Shown: piece after piece, positions 8,304-20,442 of the stretch
Numbering within the stretch: position 1 is the stretch's first letter
Layout of the letters: the number at the start of each line of letters is the position of its first letter
Virus record (IMG/VR): IMGVR_UViG_3300022442_000002
Location: 1-20,442 of that record
Origin: a virus
Length of the DNA: 20,442 nucleotides
Strand: one strand, 5' to 3'
Notes under the pieces: generated by a model
The model's input: only the letters and a program-made list of their open reading frames with translations
Told to the model about the DNA's origin: nothing
Database searches by the model: none
Made by a program: the position numbers and the translations under genes

Positions 8304-9251
8304 ATGTCATTAAGAAGTTCAGCAAAATACGAATTTGGGTTACCGTTTGCACGTTTCATGCCATTAAATGATGACTTAACAATTCCAACAGTAACTCGGA
8401 TGCTCGGCGGTACAGGGCCGTTCGATTTTTCAGGTGTTACAGATGATACAGCAGTACAGTTGTATATCAAGCAAGATGATGGAACGGCAACGAGTATAAC
8501 CGTTGATGTTTCTACCGCAAGCGACACATCTGCTGTAACTGTTTCAGAGTTGCAAACTGCGCTTGATTCTGGTGCTTCCCCCGCATTATCTACAATAGAT
8601 ATTGCAGCAACTACAGCAGCAGGCAAAAACGGAAGCACAAGGATTAAACTTGCTTCAACTGATACATCGACTACACCGAGCTACATACAGGTATACGGAG
8701 AACTCGCAGAAATCGCTAAGTTCGGACAGGGCTTCGGCCTGAAGTTTGTCAAGTTCGATACGCTACGAACATTCGGTCTTACCCCTACCATGAAAGACGA
8801 TGAAACTTTCACGACTACCGATGCACAGGGACAGGATACCGAAGTTATATCGGACGGCTACAGGAAAGGCTCAACAGCAAGTGTTACCGACACTGCAAAA
8901 GACCCTGAATTCAAGGTTCTAATGCTTGGCGGTTCATATAATTCTACAACCGGACGCTACGAAGCAGGTACTTCGGAATCTGTACGATACTACTTCTATG
9001 TAGAATTGTATTATCCGTATTACTCAAGAGGAACTAATCAGGAAGCTGATATTGTTGGATACAAGCAAAAAGTCATTCGTATGGCCAAAGGAGGCTTGGG
9101 TGAAGATACTCACGGACGTGAATGGTCGGACGGTAACTATACACTAACCGCTGTTACATACATAGATGAAAATGATAATCTTCTTGCAGATGAATACGAA
9201 GATGAATTAACCATTTCGGAATACAATGCGCTTGCATTATCAGATGTATAA
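8304..9251 (+). CDS. Major tail (tube) protein, first paralogue
   Basis: 315 residues; GGAG-type site 8 bases before ATG. Beta-rich, no membrane segments. It shares with the next gene an N-terminal LRSxAxYEFG motif followed by RFxPxND, then GPxDFSxxTDxTAVxLY, a central YIQVYGELAEI...FGQGFGL motif near residues 130-150 and a C-terminal SEYNALALSDV. These mark two copies of one tail-tube-type fold. The position between terminator and chaperone makes the major tail tube protein the best call. Residues about 50-110 are a Ser/Thr/Ala-rich region that may be an added Ig-like or loop domain. Which paralogue forms most of the tube cannot be told. Confidence 0.7.
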   Translation: MSLRSSAKYEFGLPFARFMPLNDDLTIPTVTRMLGGTGPFDFSGVTDDTAVQLYIKQDDGTATSITVDVSTASDTSAVTVSELQTALDSGASPALSTIDIAATTAAGKNGSTRIKLASTDTSTTPSYIQVYGELAEIAKFGQGFGLKFVKFDTLRTFGLTPTMKDDETFTTTDAQGQDTEVISDGYRKGSTASVTDTAKDPEFKVLMLGGSYNSTTGRYEAGTSESVRYYFYVELYYPYYSRGTNQEADIVGYKQKVIRMAKGGLGEDTHGREWSDGNYTLTAVTYIDENDNLLADEYEDELTISEYNALALSDV

Positions 9252-10196: not shown

Positions 10197-10842
10197 AGAG
10201 AAAATACAAGAATCTCAATATCCCATTATTATGGCGCCCTTTTTTGGCACTCCGGTTCCTGTAATGCTTCGTGAACTAACGCAAGCGCAGATAATGGCAT
10301 GTGGTAGTTTTTCCCTCATAGAAACATTCAAAGATAAAATCGAACGGCAGCAGAAATCCGATAATCTTGATCTTGATACTGTTATTGAATATTCAGAGAA
10401 ACATAACGAAATATGTAAACGCGCTCTTTTGAAACCGACGTATGATGAAATAATTGAAATGATAACAGATACGAAAATAGAAGAGGCACGAAATAAACTG
10501 AAAGAACTTAAAGAGCGTATCAAAGAAACTCCACGGGGTGAAGAGCGAACAAAAATAGAACATGAAATAGATTCGCTTAGAGTTTGGACGGATCTTATAT
10601 TGCCGGATGATTTCACTTCTTTCATAGTATCGTATACGCTTAATATTGAAAAATCTGATATAAAAGAGCTTACAAGAGAAGTGCTTTTGAATGCTGCTAT
10701 ATTGGCAGAGCAAGGGCATGATAACCCAGCAGATCATGTAACAGGGAAGTTCACTGATTTCATGAAAGATGATATAAACTCCCGTGCATGGATTATCCTC
10801 CGCGATGCAAGAGAAGAAAACCGGAGGACAAATGTCCGTTAA
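10132..10842 (+). CDS. Tail assembly chaperone-like protein
   Basis: 236 residues from ATG 10132 (a GTG sits directly before it). The start is uncertain. ATG 10231 lacks any ribosome binding site and would lose residues (KEKIQESQYPIIMAPFFG) that look like part of the fold, so the longer form is preferred although it overlaps the tail-tube gene by 65 bases. The protein is helical and highly charged, with no membrane segment. The position immediately before the tape measure gene is where tail assembly chaperones (lambda gpG/GT role) stand; they coat the tape measure during tube polymerisation. The +1 frame stays open past its end, so a frameshifted longer form is conceivable. Confidence 0.55.
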   Translation: MTIIQKLLHRQNTQHSDLATTKEKIQESQYPIIMAPFFGTPVPVMLRELTQAQIMACGSFSLIETFKDKIERQQKSDNLDLDTVIEYSEKHNEICKRALLKPTYDEIIEMITDTKIEEARNKLKELKERIKETPRGEERTKIEHEIDSLRVWTDLILPDDFTSFIVSYTLNIEKSDIKELTREVLLNAAILAEQGHDNPADHVTGKFTDFMKDDINSRAWIILRDAREENRRTNVR

Positions 10843-10885
10843 ACGTGATATACTAACAGCAACAGGCGGTTACAATGGCAGTTGA
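10832..10885 (+). CDS. Micro-ORF coupling chaperone and tape measure genes (17 aa)
   Basis: ATG 10832 lies inside the chaperone end and has GGAGG at 10823-10827, 4 bases upstream, a better site than that of the tape measure gene. It reads MSVKRDILTATGGYNGS and stops at 10883-10885, eleven bases into the tape measure gene. It may be a coupling peptide that delivers ribosomes to the tape measure start, or the C-terminal extension of the chaperone made by a frameshift (the +1 frame is open from about 10784). Confidence 0.4.
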   Translation: MSVKRDILTATGGYNGS

Positions 10886-13800
10886 TGCAGGAACTATATA
10901 CAGTGAAGTCCGTATCGAACTCGATAAACTTAAAGGTGATATAAGAAAAACTCGCACAGAATTTGATAAGTTTGGAAAGTCTAATCAAAGGCAAGCCCGG
11001 AAAGTTCAAAAATCATGGACAGACAAGTTTAAACAGATAAATCTCGCGGGTGTTGCTGCTTTTGCAGGAATAGGTGTTGCGCTTAAAAAAGCTATTACTC
11101 AGTTTGCTGATTTCGAGCAGGCGATGGCGAACGTCCAGTCCGTCGCCCGTGCTACCCCGGAAGAATTTAGGAGGCTTGAAGAGGCCGCACAGCAAGCAGG
11201 GGAAACCACGGCGTTTTCAGCGACTGAATCAGCTAACGCTCTGTATTCCCTCGCTTCCGCGGGATTAGATGCGAAAGAATCAGCAGCGGCGCTCGATGGG
11301 GTGTTGCAGTTAGCTGGCGCGACACAATCCGATCTTACTGATACTTCCGCTTCAGTTGCTGCTGCTTTGAGTCAATTCGGCTTAGATGCTTCCGAAGCAA
11401 CCGATGTTTCCAATACGTTTGCTGCTGCGATTGCTAACAGTCAGGCTAACATGACTAAGTTATCGAATGCGATGCGTCAAGTAGGACCCGTCGCGGGTAC
11501 ACTCGGTATATCAATAGAAGAAACCACAGGCGCATTACAGGCGTTATTCGATGCGGGTTTTAGAGGCGAGCAAGCAGGAACTGCGCTTCGTAATATTTTA
11601 TCCTCACTCGCGAATGAATCAGATGCAACAGTTAAAAAACTGAATGACTTAGGTGTGGCTTTTGAAGATGTTGACCCGGCTGCTAACTCTCTTACAGATG
11701 TGATAGGAACTCTTGCAGAGGCGGGACTTGAAACTGGACAAGTGCTTGATGCTTTCGGACGTGAAGCAGGGCCTCAATTATTAACTCTGTTACAGACTGG
11801 CGAACAAGGGTTGAAAGATTATACAGCAGCCGTAACTGATACAAACGCGGCCTCCGAAGCATACGAAATACAGATGGATACTATGCAAGGTTCACTTGCT
11901 GAACTTAGCAGTGCTACAGAATCAGCCGCAATTACTTTCATTAGTGAATTCGCACCGGCTATTCGAGCGGTTATCGAATCTTTAACATCTCTGATAAGAT
12001 TCATAAGCGATATTCCAGGGCCTTTAAAAGTCATGCTCGGTCTTTTCACTGGTGGGGTAGCAACAGTAGCAGGTTTCACTACTGCACTGTCAGTACTTGG
12101 CGTTACTGCGGGGGTTGCTCTCGGGCCTATAACAGCTATAGTTGCTGCAGCTTCCGCGCTTACGGCTGGTTTTATAGCAGTCAAGGGCGCTATAGGAAAT
12201 GTGAAACTCGGTGATCTACGGGGTGAAGTTGAGGGTATAGCTTCTGAGCTTGATCTTACGCAGCAGAAGGCAAAAGAGTTCGCGATAAACCTAAAAGCTA
12301 TAGGCGCTAACAAAGATAATCTCGATGGTATAATATCCGGAATAAAACAGATAAAACAAGAGTTCGGGTTATCTATAGATGTGATAGAAGAAGCGAATCA
12401 GAAGTTTTTGACGCTTCGCGAAATCGGGGTATCGACTGCGGATGCTGTCGATAATCTGAAACGTGAATACGGATTAACAGAGGAAGAAGTTTTCGCAGTT
12501 TTAGAAGTTAATGAAGAGCTGTCAAAGGAGACTGAAAATGCTCTTGAAACGCAGCAAGAGAAAACAAAAGAACAAAAGGAATTTGTTAAGCAATTATCCA
12601 GGGAAGTTACCCGTCGCGATGCTGTAAGACAACTCGCACAGGGAAATGAAAAACTCGCTCAATCTGCACTTAATTTTCTGAAAAAGCAAGATGAACAGTT
12701 AAATAAAAACGAAGACAGAGTAATCGATAAAATACAAGCTGAATTGGATCTTGAAGAAGAGGTAAACAACTTACAGGAACTAAAAAATGAAGGTGGAATA
12801 ACAGAAGCTGAACTTACTGAAAGAAGCAATTCACTAAGAAAAAATATTAGAGATAATCTGATAGAATCCGTACAGGCTGGTGAGGAATTAACAGAGGGAC
12901 AATGGCACTTACTCGGAGCTATAAATGAATTTCTCGGTGTACAAAAAGAAACTGTGGAAGAGTCTGAGAATCTTTCCGATTCTTTTGAAGAGATAGAAAC
13001 TAACATATACTCCGGTATAGATGCACTTGAAAAATACCATGATGAATCAAAAGCAACGTATACTGATATTTCCGATCAAACTGAATCATATGAAATGGAA
13101 TTACTGAGGCTTGTCGGGACAGAAGAGGAAGTAATTGAAGCCGAAAGAGATAGGGCGATTGCAGCTGCTCGGGCTTCCGGCGGTTCTATCGATGCGATAA
13201 ACAGACAGATAGATGCGATAAATAGATTGTATGATGAAATGCTAAACCGTGCGCGAGAAAGCACAGAAGAGCAGAAAACGTTATTCAGAGAATTCCTTGA
13301 TAGTGTACGTGAAACCGAGGCTGATTGGCAAGATTATTTTGACGTTGTAACAAATGGATTCACAAATCTTGTTTCGAGTATAGATAGTCTTGTGCAGGCA
13401 AGCGCTGATAATCAGATAGAAGAGATCAATCGGGTACTCGATGCGCAGTTGTCGACAATAAATAGATTAGAACAAAACCGTATTGATTCAATAGATAGAC
13501 AGTTACAAAAAGAGCTTGAAGCAGCAGGAGTAGCAGAAGAAACAAGGCTTGAATCATTAGAGCGACAATTAGAAGAAGCAAAAGAATCTGGGGATAAAGA
13601 AACAGAGGCAAGACTTGAAGATGAAATAACAAGACTTGAAATTATACAGAAATATGAAAAGGAAAAAACTAAAACAGAAGAAGAGGCCGAAGCAGAAAGA
13701 ATTGAAGCTACAGAAGAAGCAGAGCAAGAGAAAGCACAAATACAATATGAGGCAAACATAGCTGCATGGAGATCCAAGCTTGCAATTGCCTTAGCAGATG

Positions 13801-14273
13801 CAGCACGTGCTATAATAACAGGATATGCACAGCTTGGGCCGATTGCTGGTTCCATCGCAGCGGCTACGACAGGGGTTGCAACAGGAATACAGATAGCTGC
13901 TATGAGACAGGCGAAGCCGGAAGAACCGGATTTCGCTACAGGCGGAATCGTAAATCCTATACGTGATAATATAAATAATATTCAGAGTAGATCGAACAAG
14001 CCTGAGTTTCAAACAGGCGGTATTATGGTTCCCTCCGGTTCGGATGGTAGACAAATAACTGTCGCTGAAAATGGTTCTCCTGAGCTTATGCTTAATTCCG
14101 GCGGTGAAGGTGCTGCGCTATTAGATGAATTTGCAAATCGTATAGTACGAGCTATGGGAACACAGCGCGGTGGCGGTGGTATAATGAATGTTCAGCTTTC
14201 AGTTGACGGTAGAAAAATAGCAGAGAATACGGTAGACTATATTAACAACGGACAGATACGGGTTAAGGTATGA
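10875..14273 (+). CDS. Tail tape measure protein
   Basis: 1132 residues, the longest gene here. The N-terminal half has the TP901-type tape measure core: FADFEQAMANVQSVARAT (about 78-95), GETTAFSATESANALYSLAS, then NMTKLSNAMRQVGPVAGTLG and GFRGEQAGTALRNILSSL. Residues about 380-437 form hydrophobic, Gly/Ala-rich segments that may cross the host membrane on ejection. Residues 460-960 are mostly coiled coil, densest at about 850-965. The C-terminus has TGGIV and the ENGSPELML motif seen in many tape measures. By the usual rule of about 0.15 nm per residue, the tail should be very roughly 150-170 nm. The gene ends in an ATGA overlap with the next gene. The ribosome binding site (AGGCGG) is weak, consistent with coupling. 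Confidence 0.95.
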   Translation: MAVDAGTIYSEVRIELDKLKGDIRKTRTEFDKFGKSNQRQARKVQKSWTDKFKQINLAGVAAFAGIGVALKKAITQFADFEQAMANVQSVARATPEEFRRLEEAAQQAGETTAFSATESANALYSLASAGLDAKESAAALDGVLQLAGATQSDLTDTSASVAAALSQFGLDASEATDVSNTFAAAIANSQANMTKLSNAMRQVGPVAGTLGISIEETTGALQALFDAGFRGEQAGTALRNILSSLANESDATVKKLNDLGVAFEDVDPAANSLTDVIGTLAEAGLETGQVLDAFGREAGPQLLTLLQTGEQGLKDYTAAVTDTNAASEAYEIQMDTMQGSLAELSSATESAAITFISEFAPAIRAVIESLTSLIRFISDIPGPLKVMLGLFTGGVATVAGFTTALSVLGVTAGVALGPITAIVAAASALTAGFIAVKGAIGNVKLGDLRGEVEGIASELDLTQQKAKEFAINLKAIGANKDNLDGIISGIKQIKQEFGLSIDVIEEANQKFLTLREIGVSTADAVDNLKREYGLTEEEVFAVLEVNEELSKETENALETQQEKTKEQKEFVKQLSREVTRRDAVRQLAQGNEKLAQSALNFLKKQDEQLNKNEDRVIDKIQAELDLEEEVNNLQELKNEGGITEAELTERSNSLRKNIRDNLIESVQAGEELTEGQWHLLGAINEFLGVQKETVEESENLSDSFEEIETNIYSGIDALEKYHDESKATYTDISDQTESYEMELLRLVGTEEEVIEAERDRAIAAARASGGSIDAINRQIDAINRLYDEMLNRARESTEEQKTLFREFLDSVRETEADWQDYFDVVTNGFTNLVSSIDSLVQASADNQIEEINRVLDAQLSTINRLEQNRIDSIDRQLQKELEAAGVAEETRLESLERQLEEAKESGDKETEARLEDEITRLEIIQKYEKEKTKTEEEAEAERIEATEEAEQEKAQIQYEANIAAWRSKLAIALADAARAIITGYAQLGPIAGSIAAATTGVATGIQIAAMRQAKPEEPDFATGGIVNPIRDNINNIQSRSNKPEFQTGGIMVPSGSDGRQITVAENGSPELMLNSGGEGAALLDEFANRIVRAMGTQRGGGGIMNVQLSVDGRKIAENTVDYINNGQIRVKV

Positions 14274-15058: not shown

Positions 15059-16545
15059 TGGCAATAAATAGAGTAGCATACCCTTCTACACCTACACCAG
15101 TGTCTAATGACTGGGGCAGGATTGTTGATTTAATGCAGACGAATTATTTACTTACTGAGGGTCCTGAGCGGATAGATTTCACGAATGACGATGTGAAGGA
15201 AGGCGCTGTTTTTCAGATCGGCGGGGTTGTTTACCTGGCTGATTCGGATACACCTATAACCGGCACATCAAGCGATTATGTTAAGATAACGCCGAGCGGA
15301 TCAACCGCCAGTGCTGCTTATGTATCGAACTTGACCGGTGTTTCGTGGAATGCGGTTTATAATGGATACTACGATGGTAGCGGGAATCTGTATGTTTTCA
15401 GTGAAGTTAAGGCCATACTTGCAGGTGATATAACGGCAGCTGAAACGAGAATCGGTAAGGCGTATAAAGATTTACTCGCGGGAAATAATACGTTTACTGG
15501 TGATAATACGCTGTCGGGGAATAATACGTTTACCGGAATAACAAGAGTTAAATTACGTGATTTAATTTCTGATTATGCAACTGCAGAAGCTTTACCTAAA
15601 AAACATATAATAAGACCATATGCATACGATTGGATTTTGCAGTCTAATGCTGCAAGTAATAGTTGGCATGATATAGCATGGAGTCCTTCGCTTGGTTTAT
15701 TCGCGGCAGTTGCGAATTCCGGCACAGGCGACCGAGTTATGACAAGTCCTAATGGCATTAATTGGACAAACAGAACAAGCGCTGCTGATAATTATTGGTA
15801 TGATATCACATGGAGTCCCGATCTTAGTTTGTTTGCTGCTGTTTCGATAACGGGTACTGGCGACCGGGTTATGACGTCGCCAGATGGTATAACTTGGACA
15901 TCAAGGACAAGTGCAGCCGATTATCAATGGCGTTCTATAGCATGGAGTCCTTCGCTTGGTTTATTTGCAGTAGTTTCAGATTCTGGCACAGGCGATCGCG
16001 TAATGACAAGTCCCGACGGTACGACGTGGACGCTACGAACAAGTGCGGCTGATAATAACTGGCGAGCAATAGCATGGAGTCCGTCACTTGGGTTATTCGC
16101 TGCGGTTGCAACATCGGGCACAGGCAATAGGGTTATGACCAGTCCCGACGGTATAAATTGGAGTATACAGACAAGTGCAGCCGATTATCAATGGCTTAGT
16201 ATAGCATGGAGTCCAACGCTTAGTTTATTTGCTGCGGTTGCATCTACCGGAACAGGTGATCGAGTTATGACGTCGCCAGATGGTACAACGTGGACATCAA
16301 GGACAAGTGCCGCTGATTACACGTGGACAAGTATCGCATGGAGTCCTGAGCTTGGTTTATTCGTAGCGGTTTCCTTATCTGGCACAGGCGATAGAATTAT
16401 GACAAGTCCCGACGGTATAAATTGGACACTTCGTTCAAGTGCAGCCGATGATCAATGGCAAAGTATCGCATGGAGTCCCGAGCTTGGTATATTCGCTTCA
16501 GTTTCTAGCTCTGGAACAGCAATGACCTCGAGAAAATACATATGA
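15058..16545 (+). CDS. Tail tip/fibre protein with seven-bladed propeller repeats
   Basis: 495 residues, starting in a TAATG overlap with the previous gene. Residues 1-140 contain short beta segments (AVFQIGGVVYLADSDTPI is typical of phage fibre N-termini). Residues about 142-165 have the repeated GNNTFTG motif common in tail fibres. From residue 193 to the end there are seven tandem 44-residue units with the consensus TSRTSAADYxW, then xSIAWSPSLGLFAAVxxSGT, then GDRVMTSPDGINW; the last unit is shortened. The WSP...VMTSPDGxxW pattern is that of BNR/sialidase-type or photosynthesis-system-assembly-like propeller blades. Seven units predict a closed seven-bladed propeller, probably binding a host surface glycan or protein. 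No hydrolase catalytic site is evident. Overlaps the next gene by ATGA. Confidence 0.8.
   Translation: MAINRVAYPSTPTPVSNDWGRIVDLMQTNYLLTEGPERIDFTNDDVKEGAVFQIGGVVYLADSDTPITGTSSDYVKITPSGSTASAAYVSNLTGVSWNAVYNGYYDGSGNLYVFSEVKAILAGDITAAETRIGKAYKDLLAGNNTFTGDNTLSGNNTFTGITRVKLRDLISDYATAEALPKKHIIRPYAYDWILQSNAASNSWHDIAWSPSLGLFAAVANSGTGDRVMTSPNGINWTNRTSAADNYWYDITWSPDLSLFAAVSITGTGDRVMTSPDGITWTSRTSAADYQWRSIAWSPSLGLFAVVSDSGTGDRVMTSPDGTTWTLRTSAADNNWRAIAWSPSLGLFAAVATSGTGNRVMTSPDGINWSIQTSAADYQWLSIAWSPTLSLFAAVASTGTGDRVMTSPDGTTWTSRTSAADYTWTSIAWSPELGLFVAVSLSGTGDRIMTSPDGINWTLRSSAADDQWQSIAWSPELGIFASVSSSGTAMTSRKYI
15634..16542 (+). repeat. Seven tandem 132-base coding repeats
   Basis: Units begin at 15634, 15766, 15898, 16030, 16162, 16294 and 16426; the seventh ends early with the gene. 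All are in frame. Blocks such as GCATGGAGTCC and GACAAGTCC recur almost unchanged, while positions after W, after FAAV and before GTG vary. Identity at DNA level is high enough for recombination between units, which could change blade number or shuffle variants. Confidence 0.9.
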
Positions 16546-18338: not shown

Positions 18339-19475
18339 ATGGCAAATAAAACGATTTCTGGAATAACTACAGAGGCTACAAGCAGAAACGATTCCGATTG
18401 GCTTGAAACAGAGCAAGGCGGTGTGTCTAAAAAGATAACCGCTGCTAATTTTCTCGGCGACTTAAATGATCTCGAGCCTGCAACCGGATACGATTCTACT
18501 GGTGCAACAATTATAATACCGGACACCCTCCGTGCTTCGGTTGAAGCAGCTTCAGGCGGAAGGGTTACTGTGTTGTACGACGATCAGGGTTACCCAAGTT
18601 ATATGGTACGGATACCAGCTTTCAACCTTGAGGATATCCACAGCGATTTCGGAACTGGTAGGCACCCGGCTTTTACAGTTGGAGGGGTTGATAAAGCGGA
18701 AATTTTCGTAGGCATGCACCAGGCCTCGGTTTATAATAACAGGGCTTTGTCTTTACCGGGCCTTGATCCAACAGTCAATGTGGATTGGGATGAAGCACAC
18801 ACGTATTGCACCAATAAGGGCTCAGGCTGGCACTTAATGACTAATTGGGAATGGGCGGCGGTTACCCTCTGGGTTATGAAGCAAGTAACAGATTCTATTC
18901 TCGCCAATCAACCACGAGGAAATACCGATTACGGGCGCGCACACGATGAGTACCAAGAGACCGGCACACGCCAAGATGGCGCGAGTTATGCTCCCGGGGG
19001 TAGCTCCGGTGAAGGACGGATATTGACAGGAAGCGGCCCGGCAGCATGGCGACACGATCTTACAGTAGCAGGAATTGCAGACATGGTAGGTAATATATGG
19101 GAGTGGGTTGGTGGCCTAAAAATTATAGACGGCGCAATCAAAATGCCGAACGATAACGACTATACGATGAGCGATAGTTCGTATCCGGATCAGGACGCTA
19201 CTATTACAGATTCTGATCCATGGAATGCGGACGGAGTAACAGTGGGAGGAACCGGTGATACGGAATTATTACGTGCGGCTTTATTAAAGCCTGCAACAGC
19301 AGTGACTGATACTACAAACGGTAGCTTGTTTGTTAATGATACCAGTGAGCGCGTGCCGCGCCGTGGGGGCCACTGGAACTGCGGGTCGATCGCTGGTTTG
19401 GCCGCTTTGTACCTCACCAATACTCGGTCGTACCCGTACAACTACTTCGGGTTTCGCCCCTGCTATATTGGATAG
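18339..19475 (+). CDS. DGR-type variable protein (FGE-sulfatase/C-type lectin fold), receptor-binding candidate
   Basis: 378 residues; AAAGGGG 8 bases before ATG. The N-terminus (NKTISGITTEATSRNDSDWL, then EQGGVSKKITAANFLGDL) is the attachment motif of many tail fibres. From about residue 119 the protein has formylglycine-generating-enzyme-like lectin fold motifs: VGMHQASVYN, WDEAHTYCTNKGSGWHLMTN (about 150-169), WEWAA, and MVGNIWEWVGG (about 248-258). The C-terminus RRGGHWNCGS...RSYPYNYFGFRPCYIG is the classic ending of variable proteins diversified by diversity-generating retroelements such as T. denticola TvpA and Bordetella phage Mtd. The fold gives a stable frame with exposed variable residues that bind the host. 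No enzymatic role is expected. It is likely the distal receptor-binding protein of the tail. Confidence 0.85.
   Translation: MANKTISGITTEATSRNDSDWLETEQGGVSKKITAANFLGDLNDLEPATGYDSTGATIIIPDTLRASVEAASGGRVTVLYDDQGYPSYMVRIPAFNLEDIHSDFGTGRHPAFTVGGVDKAEIFVGMHQASVYNNRALSLPGLDPTVNVDWDEAHTYCTNKGSGWHLMTNWEWAAVTLWVMKQVTDSILANQPRGNTDYGRAHDEYQETGTRQDGASYAPGGSSGEGRILTGSGPAAWRHDLTVAGIADMVGNIWEWVGGLKIIDGAIKMPNDNDYTMSDSSYPDQDATITDSDPWNADGVTVGGTGDTELLRAALLKPATAVTDTTNGSLFVNDTSERVPRRGGHWNCGSIAGLAALYLTNTRSYPYNYFGFRPCYIG
19359..19475 (+). other. Putative DGR variable region (VR) with 3' IMH-like end
   Basis: Codons 341-378. Candidate variable codons all end in C or T and have non-A bases where AAC would be expected in a template: H345 (CAC), C348 (TGC), I351 (ATC), Y358, T360, Y365, Y367, Y369, F370, with N347, N361 and N368 possibly unchanged. 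Between them are codons without A (GGG, TCG, GCT, GGT, TTG, GCC, CGG), which adenine-specific mutagenesis cannot alter. The end CGGGTTTCGCCCCTGC is G/C rich and resembles the initiation-of-mutagenic-homing element. The template repeat and reverse transcriptase must lie outside the window. Confidence 0.8.
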
Positions 19476-19485
19476 GAGATAGTAT

Positions 19486-19776
19486 ATGATGCACGAATAT
19501 ATAGCTAAGATGTATAAAAACGGACAGAATACAGAAGCACGCCGAGCAATCAAGCAAGAGATTGCCCGGGAGAATACTCCGGAAGGTGAGAATCCGGCTT
19601 ACCGGCCGACAACGGAAGAAATAGATGCGGTCGAGGCTGAATACTACGCTTCACGCCGTGCATACCGGTACGGCCCGCCGGAAAAGCAAACAGAGTATAT
19701 AGCCGAAAACGGGATATCTGCATGGCAGCAGCTTGTTTCGCAGGTTAAGGCTGATATCCCGAAGCCAGTTGAATAG
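19486..19776 (+). CDS. Tail fibre assembly/chaperone-like small protein
   Basis: 96 residues; AGGAG at 19474-19478 precedes the start. It begins MMHEYIAKMYKNGQNTEARR, is helical and charged, and ends PEKQTEYIAENGISAWQQLV followed by KADIPKP. The pattern YxxxxEQxEYIxENGxxAWxxxVxxIKxxxPKP is found in small proteins that follow tail fibre genes in many phages and are thought to help fibre folding or attachment. It lies 10 bases after the variable protein, which it may assist. It is not the DGR accessory protein Avd: too short, with no matching helical-bundle pattern. Confidence 0.5.
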   Translation: MMHEYIAKMYKNGQNTEARRAIKQEIARENTPEGENPAYRPTTEEIDAVEAEYYASRRAYRYGPPEKQTEYIAENGISAWQQLVSQVKADIPKPVE

Positions 19777-19784
19777 GGGGATGC

Positions 19785-20060
19785 ATGGAGCTGCAGGGAA
19801 TACAGAAAGACATCGAGAAGCTTAAACAGTGGAGAGACGGAAATGGAGCGAAAGGGGCAGAGAAGCGCCTGCAGGAGTTAGAATGGAAAGATGAGAACCG
19901 ATATAGTAAGTGTTTCGGAATTAAAAAGGTAGAAGAAGTGAAAGAGGAAATCGCAAAAAAGGAGGGTGAACAATTGCAAAAAAAGCATTTTTTAATAGCC
20001 CAATCAATACAGACTATCGTGCTAATTGTCATGTTAGCTGGATTGGTTGTGAGCTTATAA
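19785..20060 (+). CDS. Coiled-coil protein with C-terminal membrane segment (holin/lysis accessory candidate)
   Basis: 91 residues; AGGGGG just before the ATG. Residues 1-66 are charged and helical (KDIEKLKQWRDGNGAKGAEK, VEEVKEEIAKKEGEQLQ). Residues about 69-91 are one hydrophobic segment ending the protein (AQSIQTIVLIVMLAGLVVSL). A cytoplasmic coiled coil with a C-terminal anchor is the layout of XhlA-type or other small phage lysis proteins, and holins commonly follow the fibre genes. A single membrane segment does not prove a holin; a membrane-bound exclusion protein is another option. Confidence 0.5.
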   Translation: MELQGIQKDIEKLKQWRDGNGAKGAEKRLQELEWKDENRYSKCFGIKKVEEVKEEIAKKEGEQLQKKHFLIAQSIQTIVLIVMLAGLVVSL

Positions 20061-20072
20061 GCTGGGGGAACT

Positions 20073-20442
20073 ATGATACAGAAAATTAGAGGAGGCGGAG
20101 TAGAGAGAAAATCCATTTGGTATCAGACGGATTTTACCGGTGTTAGGCATGATGATGGATGCTTGGCATTCTCAATCACAGATATGTGCCGCGGTGTTCT
20201 TATTGATATGGGGCACGAGCCAAGGAATCTATCAAGAGCTGAAGTTGAGTGCATGCACAAACATGCACATGAGCGAGGCTATTTGCGGAAAAGTAGAAAT
20301 AATCCCGAATTCGGAATGTACGTATACAACCATGGGGGTTATGCCAATGAGGCGCTATCTTGGTTGATAGAACCTTACGTCAGATGCCAATACATCGGTG
20401 CATTCTATCTGCACGGCTCCGGCCAAAGCTGGGGGATAAAAG
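20073..20442 (+). CDS. Unknown protein, 3' end beyond the window
   Basis: ATG 20073 (MIQKIRGGGVERKSIWYQTD) with GGGGGA just upstream; 123 codons are visible and the frame is open at the window edge. Notable are DDGCLAFSITDMCRG (Cys near residue 30), NLSRAEVECMHKHAHERGYL, and YIGAFYLHGSGQSWGI at the edge. The pattern of an early GC followed by S/D and a late glycine-rich YxxGxxHGSGQSWG loosely recalls C39/papain-like cysteine peptidases and the spirochaete DUF261 small proteins, but neither is certain. Its place after a holin-like gene would suit a lysis enzyme. It is not a reverse transcriptase. Confidence 0.5.
   Translation, partial: MIQKIRGGGVERKSIWYQTDFTGVRHDDGCLAFSITDMCRGVLIDMGHEPRNLSRAEVECMHKHAHERGYLRKSRNNPEFGMYVYNHGGYANEALSWLIEPYVRCQYIGAFYLHGSGQSWGIK

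Follow-up and report, generated by a model that had tools for sequence, protein, structure and literature searches.

A variable region of diversity-generating retroelement type beside an empty cassette site in a phage tail receptor-binding gene, probably a frozen variant

The window analysed here is a whole IMG/VR record (IMGVR_UViG_3300022442_000002), linear, 20,442 bp long and probably a fragment of a phage genome. Its gene order begins with the portal, continues with head, connector and tape-measure genes and reaches the tail tip. The tail tape-measure protein is encoded at 10875–14273 (plus strand, like all window features given here; phrog_1533, E=2e-80), and its upstream position places the target gene, encoding a 378-aa tail receptor-binding protein at 18339–19475, in the tail module. 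The target gene ends in a variable region (VR) at about 19349–19466. The site at which relatives carry a cassette and cis-elements is here 10 bp long (19476–19485), directly followed by a small phage gene of 96 aa (19486–19776; phrog_9114, E=8e-6). Next comes a 91-aa protein (19785–20060), putatively lysis-type by sequence, with a charged region and then a hydrophobic stretch at the C-terminus; family searches gave no match above threshold. The last ORF (20073–20441), truncated by the contig end, belongs to no known family: neither PHROG nor Pfam nor NCBIfam gives a match, and a search for relatives found none. More of this phage was sought through the neighbour genes. The tape-measure gene and the last ORF returned no relatives, the 96-aa gene only unrelated contigs, and the gene at 16542 one 38-kb contig without a reverse transcriptase (RT) and without the target directly behind that gene.

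The target matches PF03781 (FGE-sulfatase; E=5e-6) and phrog_2889 (E=1.7e-109), and a profile built from it and 14 relatives finds PDB 5VF4 (E=3e-108). 5VF4 is the crystal structure of TaqVP, the variable protein belonging to a diversity-generating retroelement (DGR) in a Thermus aquaticus prophage (PMC6328139). The target is accordingly classed, on sequence grounds, as a homologue of DGR variable proteins of the TaqVP/phrog_2889 type with a C-type-lectin fold. Homology to TaqVP supplies both the fold and the assignment of the VR to the ligand-binding face, and by the same homology the protein would bind a receptor. The initial annotation had likewise proposed a tail receptor-binding gene with an FGE-like lectin core, which these matches and the upstream tape measure support. 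AlphaFold, given 15 sequences, produced a model with a mean pLDDT of 54.5 (below 50 in the VR), which was discarded in favour of 5VF4. Scanning IMG/VR yielded 24 relatives of the target (best-segment identity 37–61%); others occur in assemblies of Treponema, another spirochaete, Aliarcobacter, Geobacter and Desulfobacteraceae.

TRs (template repeats) from seven relatives align to the window at 19349–19460 and give only chance-level matches elsewhere. The scored VR core is 19362–19460, in register with the relatives' TRs, and the 3' end of the VR was set from the conserved GFRP plus two codons. In place of the window's own TR, 20 TRs of relatives served as the panel for a column test. Against this panel, the window VR is changed in 9/20 conserved adenine columns and in 0/34 conserved non-adenine columns (Fisher p=3e-5). 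Its variable codons are CAC, AAC, TGC, ATC, TAC, ACC, AAT, TAC, TAC and TAC, all ten of the form NNY. VRs linked to a cassette, scored identically, give the same picture; compared each with its own TR, they carry 200 of 204 mismatches at template adenines (sum over IMG/VR relatives, bacterial genomes and named phages). The column test also detects erosion where it has occurred, as the eroded orphan of Pseudoalteromonas phage KB12-38 demonstrates, with 8/34 non-adenine columns changed and 6/10 codons NNY; by the same measures the window VR is uneroded. A second copy of the window VR was sought in IMG/VR and not found. It is close to certain, judging from these alignments, that a DGR made the window VR. 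The earlier reading, that this gene ends in a DGR-type VR, is thereby upheld, and the sequence it described at 19359–19475 is present as described. Its picture of variable codons on a conserved scaffold also holds, but the conserved codons are not all adenine-free as it had supposed (e.g. ACT at 19422).

In relatives, Avd, TR and RT lie directly 3' of the target gene. An RVT_1 match is present in 11 records among the 24 IMG/VR relatives, and a near-repeat of the target 3' end lies behind the gene in 12 loci of these relatives. The distance of this TR past the stop codon is 407–442 bp in 11 of the 12 loci and 331 bp in the remaining one (L020, a partial match). The window extends 967 bp past the target stop, roughly double the span that normally separates stop and TR. 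Within the window, a search for a TR-like repeat on both strands, ungapped and by BLAST, gave nothing above chance (best ungapped match 50/110), tblastn with four Avd proteins gave nothing significant, and the 20,442-bp record has no RVT_1 match. The initial annotation was right that RT, Avd and template repeat are absent from the window; its suggestion that the retroelement lies just downstream is not supported, as TR, Avd and RT are missing from the whole 967 bp and only 10 bp separate the target from the following phage gene. Genes like this 96-aa neighbour occur in relatives: in ACA, VHML and L104, phrog_9114-like proteins lie behind the RT (2e-5 to 1e-3; they match other PHROGs better), and in the cassette-less L102 a phrog_9114-like gene (weak match) lies behind the target, as in the window. 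The window shows an empty-site arrangement at the cassette position. No deletion scar of a cassette was found in it. Judged by RT, TR, Avd and post-VR hairpin, the record does not hold a complete DGR.

The elements that normally follow a VR are missing as well. Efficient homing in BPP-1 depends on a GC-rich hairpin that follows the VR, and almost all VRs have inverted repeats of this kind behind them (PMC3240598). In a comparison set of 21 cassette-linked targets, a hairpin behind the VR (GC stem of 7–10 bp, GRNA loop) is present in 15, one of them imperfect. A second feature, found post hoc in these related sequences, consists of YTGD units, for the most part TCTGA or TCTGG, that recur as an array with a pitch of 7 or 8 nt; it is present in 18 of the 21, with 46 pairs at this spacing against 1.9 expected (sd 1.4) and a maximum of 8 in 2000 single-base shuffles. 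Other spacings show hardly any excess, and no array stands behind any of 20 TRs. The array lies between VR and Avd in L002, L004, L005, L009, L014, L015, L016, L018, L019, L021, L039, L041, L085, L088, L090, L091, L093 and L104, and the longest arrays occur in several lineages without a hairpin (L005, L009, L016, L039). Hairpin, array or both accompany 20/21 cassette-linked targets; L037 has neither. In the window, neither was found within 110 bp of the VR, and the post-VR flank is no more stably folded than its shuffled versions (z=-0.5). The phased array may be a candidate recognition element for retrohoming. No description of it was found in open-access papers, which were not searched by motif, and it is possibly undescribed so far. 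The array is an unforeseen result; orphan or partial DGR targets are an already known class.

Targets without their RT recur in this family. No RT is present in the record or assembly of L007 (59 kb), L012, L024, L038 and L044 (the last two being MAGs), nor in Salicola phage CGphi29, pYD38-B, V. lentus phages, KB12-38 and Klebsiella phages. L012 (L012:10919–12598) keeps Avd without an RT in its record, with a tail-sheath-like gene directly after Avd. Two cases preserve the deletion itself. L102 is 98% identical to ACA until just past the target, where about 1.6 kb of Avd–TR–RT is gone (L102:9232–9294 versus L091:4619–6299, an ACA-type P2-like phage), and the target and hairpin are intact. All 10 differences between the L102 VR and the ACA TR are at adenines; L102 was considered as a user of the ACA TR in trans, and this was dropped, the contig being an ACA relative (98% identity) from which the cassette has been deleted. 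The Vibrio phage pYD38-B aligns to L104 from the VR past the hairpin into the beginning of Avd, then jumps to the RT end, leaving an Avd::RT deletion scar (L087:4332–4738). Templating of pYD38-B in trans by an L104-type TR, with 2 non-adenine mismatches, was likewise dropped, given the shared Avd-side flank and the scar. pYD38-B and L104 share 87% identity across VR, hairpin and cassette remnant but only 36% protein identity in the gene body; the VR end together with the cassette was therefore probably transferred between phages as one unit, ahead of the pYD38-B deletion.

Orphan VRs also appear static. One VR is common to the four V. lentus isolates compared and one to the metagenome contigs L102, L103 and L106, all cassette-less, whereas the cassette-bearing ACA1 and ACA2 differ at 22/4148 positions, 20 of the 22 within or beside the VR. 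In these phages, which represent few hosts and few samples, orphan VRs seem unchanging among near-identical isolates, while cassette-bearing VRs change. A different arrangement is seen in bacterial assemblies. On one Aliarcobacter MAG contig, L043 (L043:10001–10843) and L037 (L037:10858–11492) lie on opposite strands about 20 kb apart; with one TR and RT, those of the L037 cassette, present for both, the L043 target resembles this TR except at adenines and is thus a remote DGR target, acted on at a distance. In a Geobacter MAG (L041:10001–12537), two tandem targets share one TR, with mismatches at adenines in 12/12 and 11/11 cases. In L001, the closest relative of the window target, 107 bases around the target start (8858–8964) recur just behind the gene at 10397–10503 with 99% identity; a second target copy seems to follow the first, but the repeat may also be an artefact of assembly where the contig ends.

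Several explanations can be weighed for a DGR-type VR without its cassette. Ordinary diversifying selection on a lectin surface, with no DGR ever involved, would fit a record in which TR and RT are absent. The column test already contradicts it: changes are confined to template-adenine columns, every variable codon is NNY, and in homologues it is these columns that depart from an actual TR. It is very improbable. Rewriting in trans by the cassette of a host or co-resident (pro)phage, which would keep the VR uneroded but would have to do so without the hairpin thought to be required, is scarcely more credible: RT-less phages with uneroded VRs do exist, but both apparent examples, L102 and pYD38-B, proved to be cassette deletions. 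In addition, none of the known TRs is a fit for the window VR, the best one showing 17/77 non-adenine mismatches, and an IMG/VR scan with VR/TR patterns, open at template-adenine positions and exact elsewhere, gave no match. A complete DGR in the unsampled part of the genome, or a second target with a cassette, could instead diversify the window target remotely. This is a more substantial alternative, though still unlikely; the service of L043 by the L037 TR, the two targets with one TR in L041, the apparent second target gene in L001 and the uneroded state of the window VR all agree with it. Yet among the members examined without an adjacent cassette, a recognisable remote cassette was seen only for L043, and L043 has a hairpin whereas the window has none.

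The reading favoured here, with moderate confidence, is that the window VR was made by a DGR and is now a frozen receptor-binding variant. As the comparison with relatives shows, adenine-directed mutagenic retrohoming from a TR wrote the C-terminal ligand-binding face; the cassette may then have been lost, or the target acquired without it, and a single sampled receptor specificity would now be inherited as an ordinary gene. Freezing is suggested by the absence of Avd–TR–RT from its canonical site and of the post-VR elements in the 967 bp present. It is further supported by precedents in the same family, namely the cassette deletions in L102 and pYD38-B and the invariance of orphan VRs compared with the variability of ACA1/ACA2. 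The uneroded VR would mean that freezing was recent or that the VR is under strong constraint. Since neither cis-element is present at the cassette-linked L037 either, a target without them need not be frozen, and with an uneroded VR and most of the phage genome outside the 20-kb fragment, the support for freezing is moderate.

Because DGRs are commonly identified by an RT with a repeat close to it, a target that has no cassette beside it goes unnoticed, and a large survey says of itself that remote targets would escape it (PMC8144416). A panel of TRs from relatives makes an orphan VR recognisable without RT or TR, as here. The pairs ACA and L102, and L104 and pYD38-B, are natural before-and-after comparisons of cassette deletion, in which one can follow directly what becomes of a hypervariable receptor-binding protein once its mutator is gone. 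The proposed role of the phased YTGD array that follows cassette-linked VRs is open to experiment.

A parallel to a VR without its RT is found in Nanoarchaeota, where partial DGRs keep target, VR and cis-elements and pose the dilemma "fossil or remotely diversified" (PMC4372165). There the cis-elements are retained and further DGRs exist in the genome, whereas the window VR has no cis-elements and lies on a 20-kb fragment. In epsilon crAss-like phages, the RT is fragmented or absent (PMC11054128); the likeness to the window would be cassette loss in a phage lineage, but another target protein and another phage group are concerned. Vibrio phage VHML ORF35 (38% identity) and the Pseudoalteromonas phage ACA1 antireceptor (34% identity) belong to the same family as the window target and share its tail tip position. 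Unlike the window, both phages have Avd–TR–RT and a GRNA hairpin behind their targets. The TaqVP gene, too, is adjoined by avd, TR and RT, none of which is adjacent in the window; the two proteins belong to one family over almost the entire chain, with the VR at the same C-terminal place and a common RGG...GFRP/GARP scaffold.
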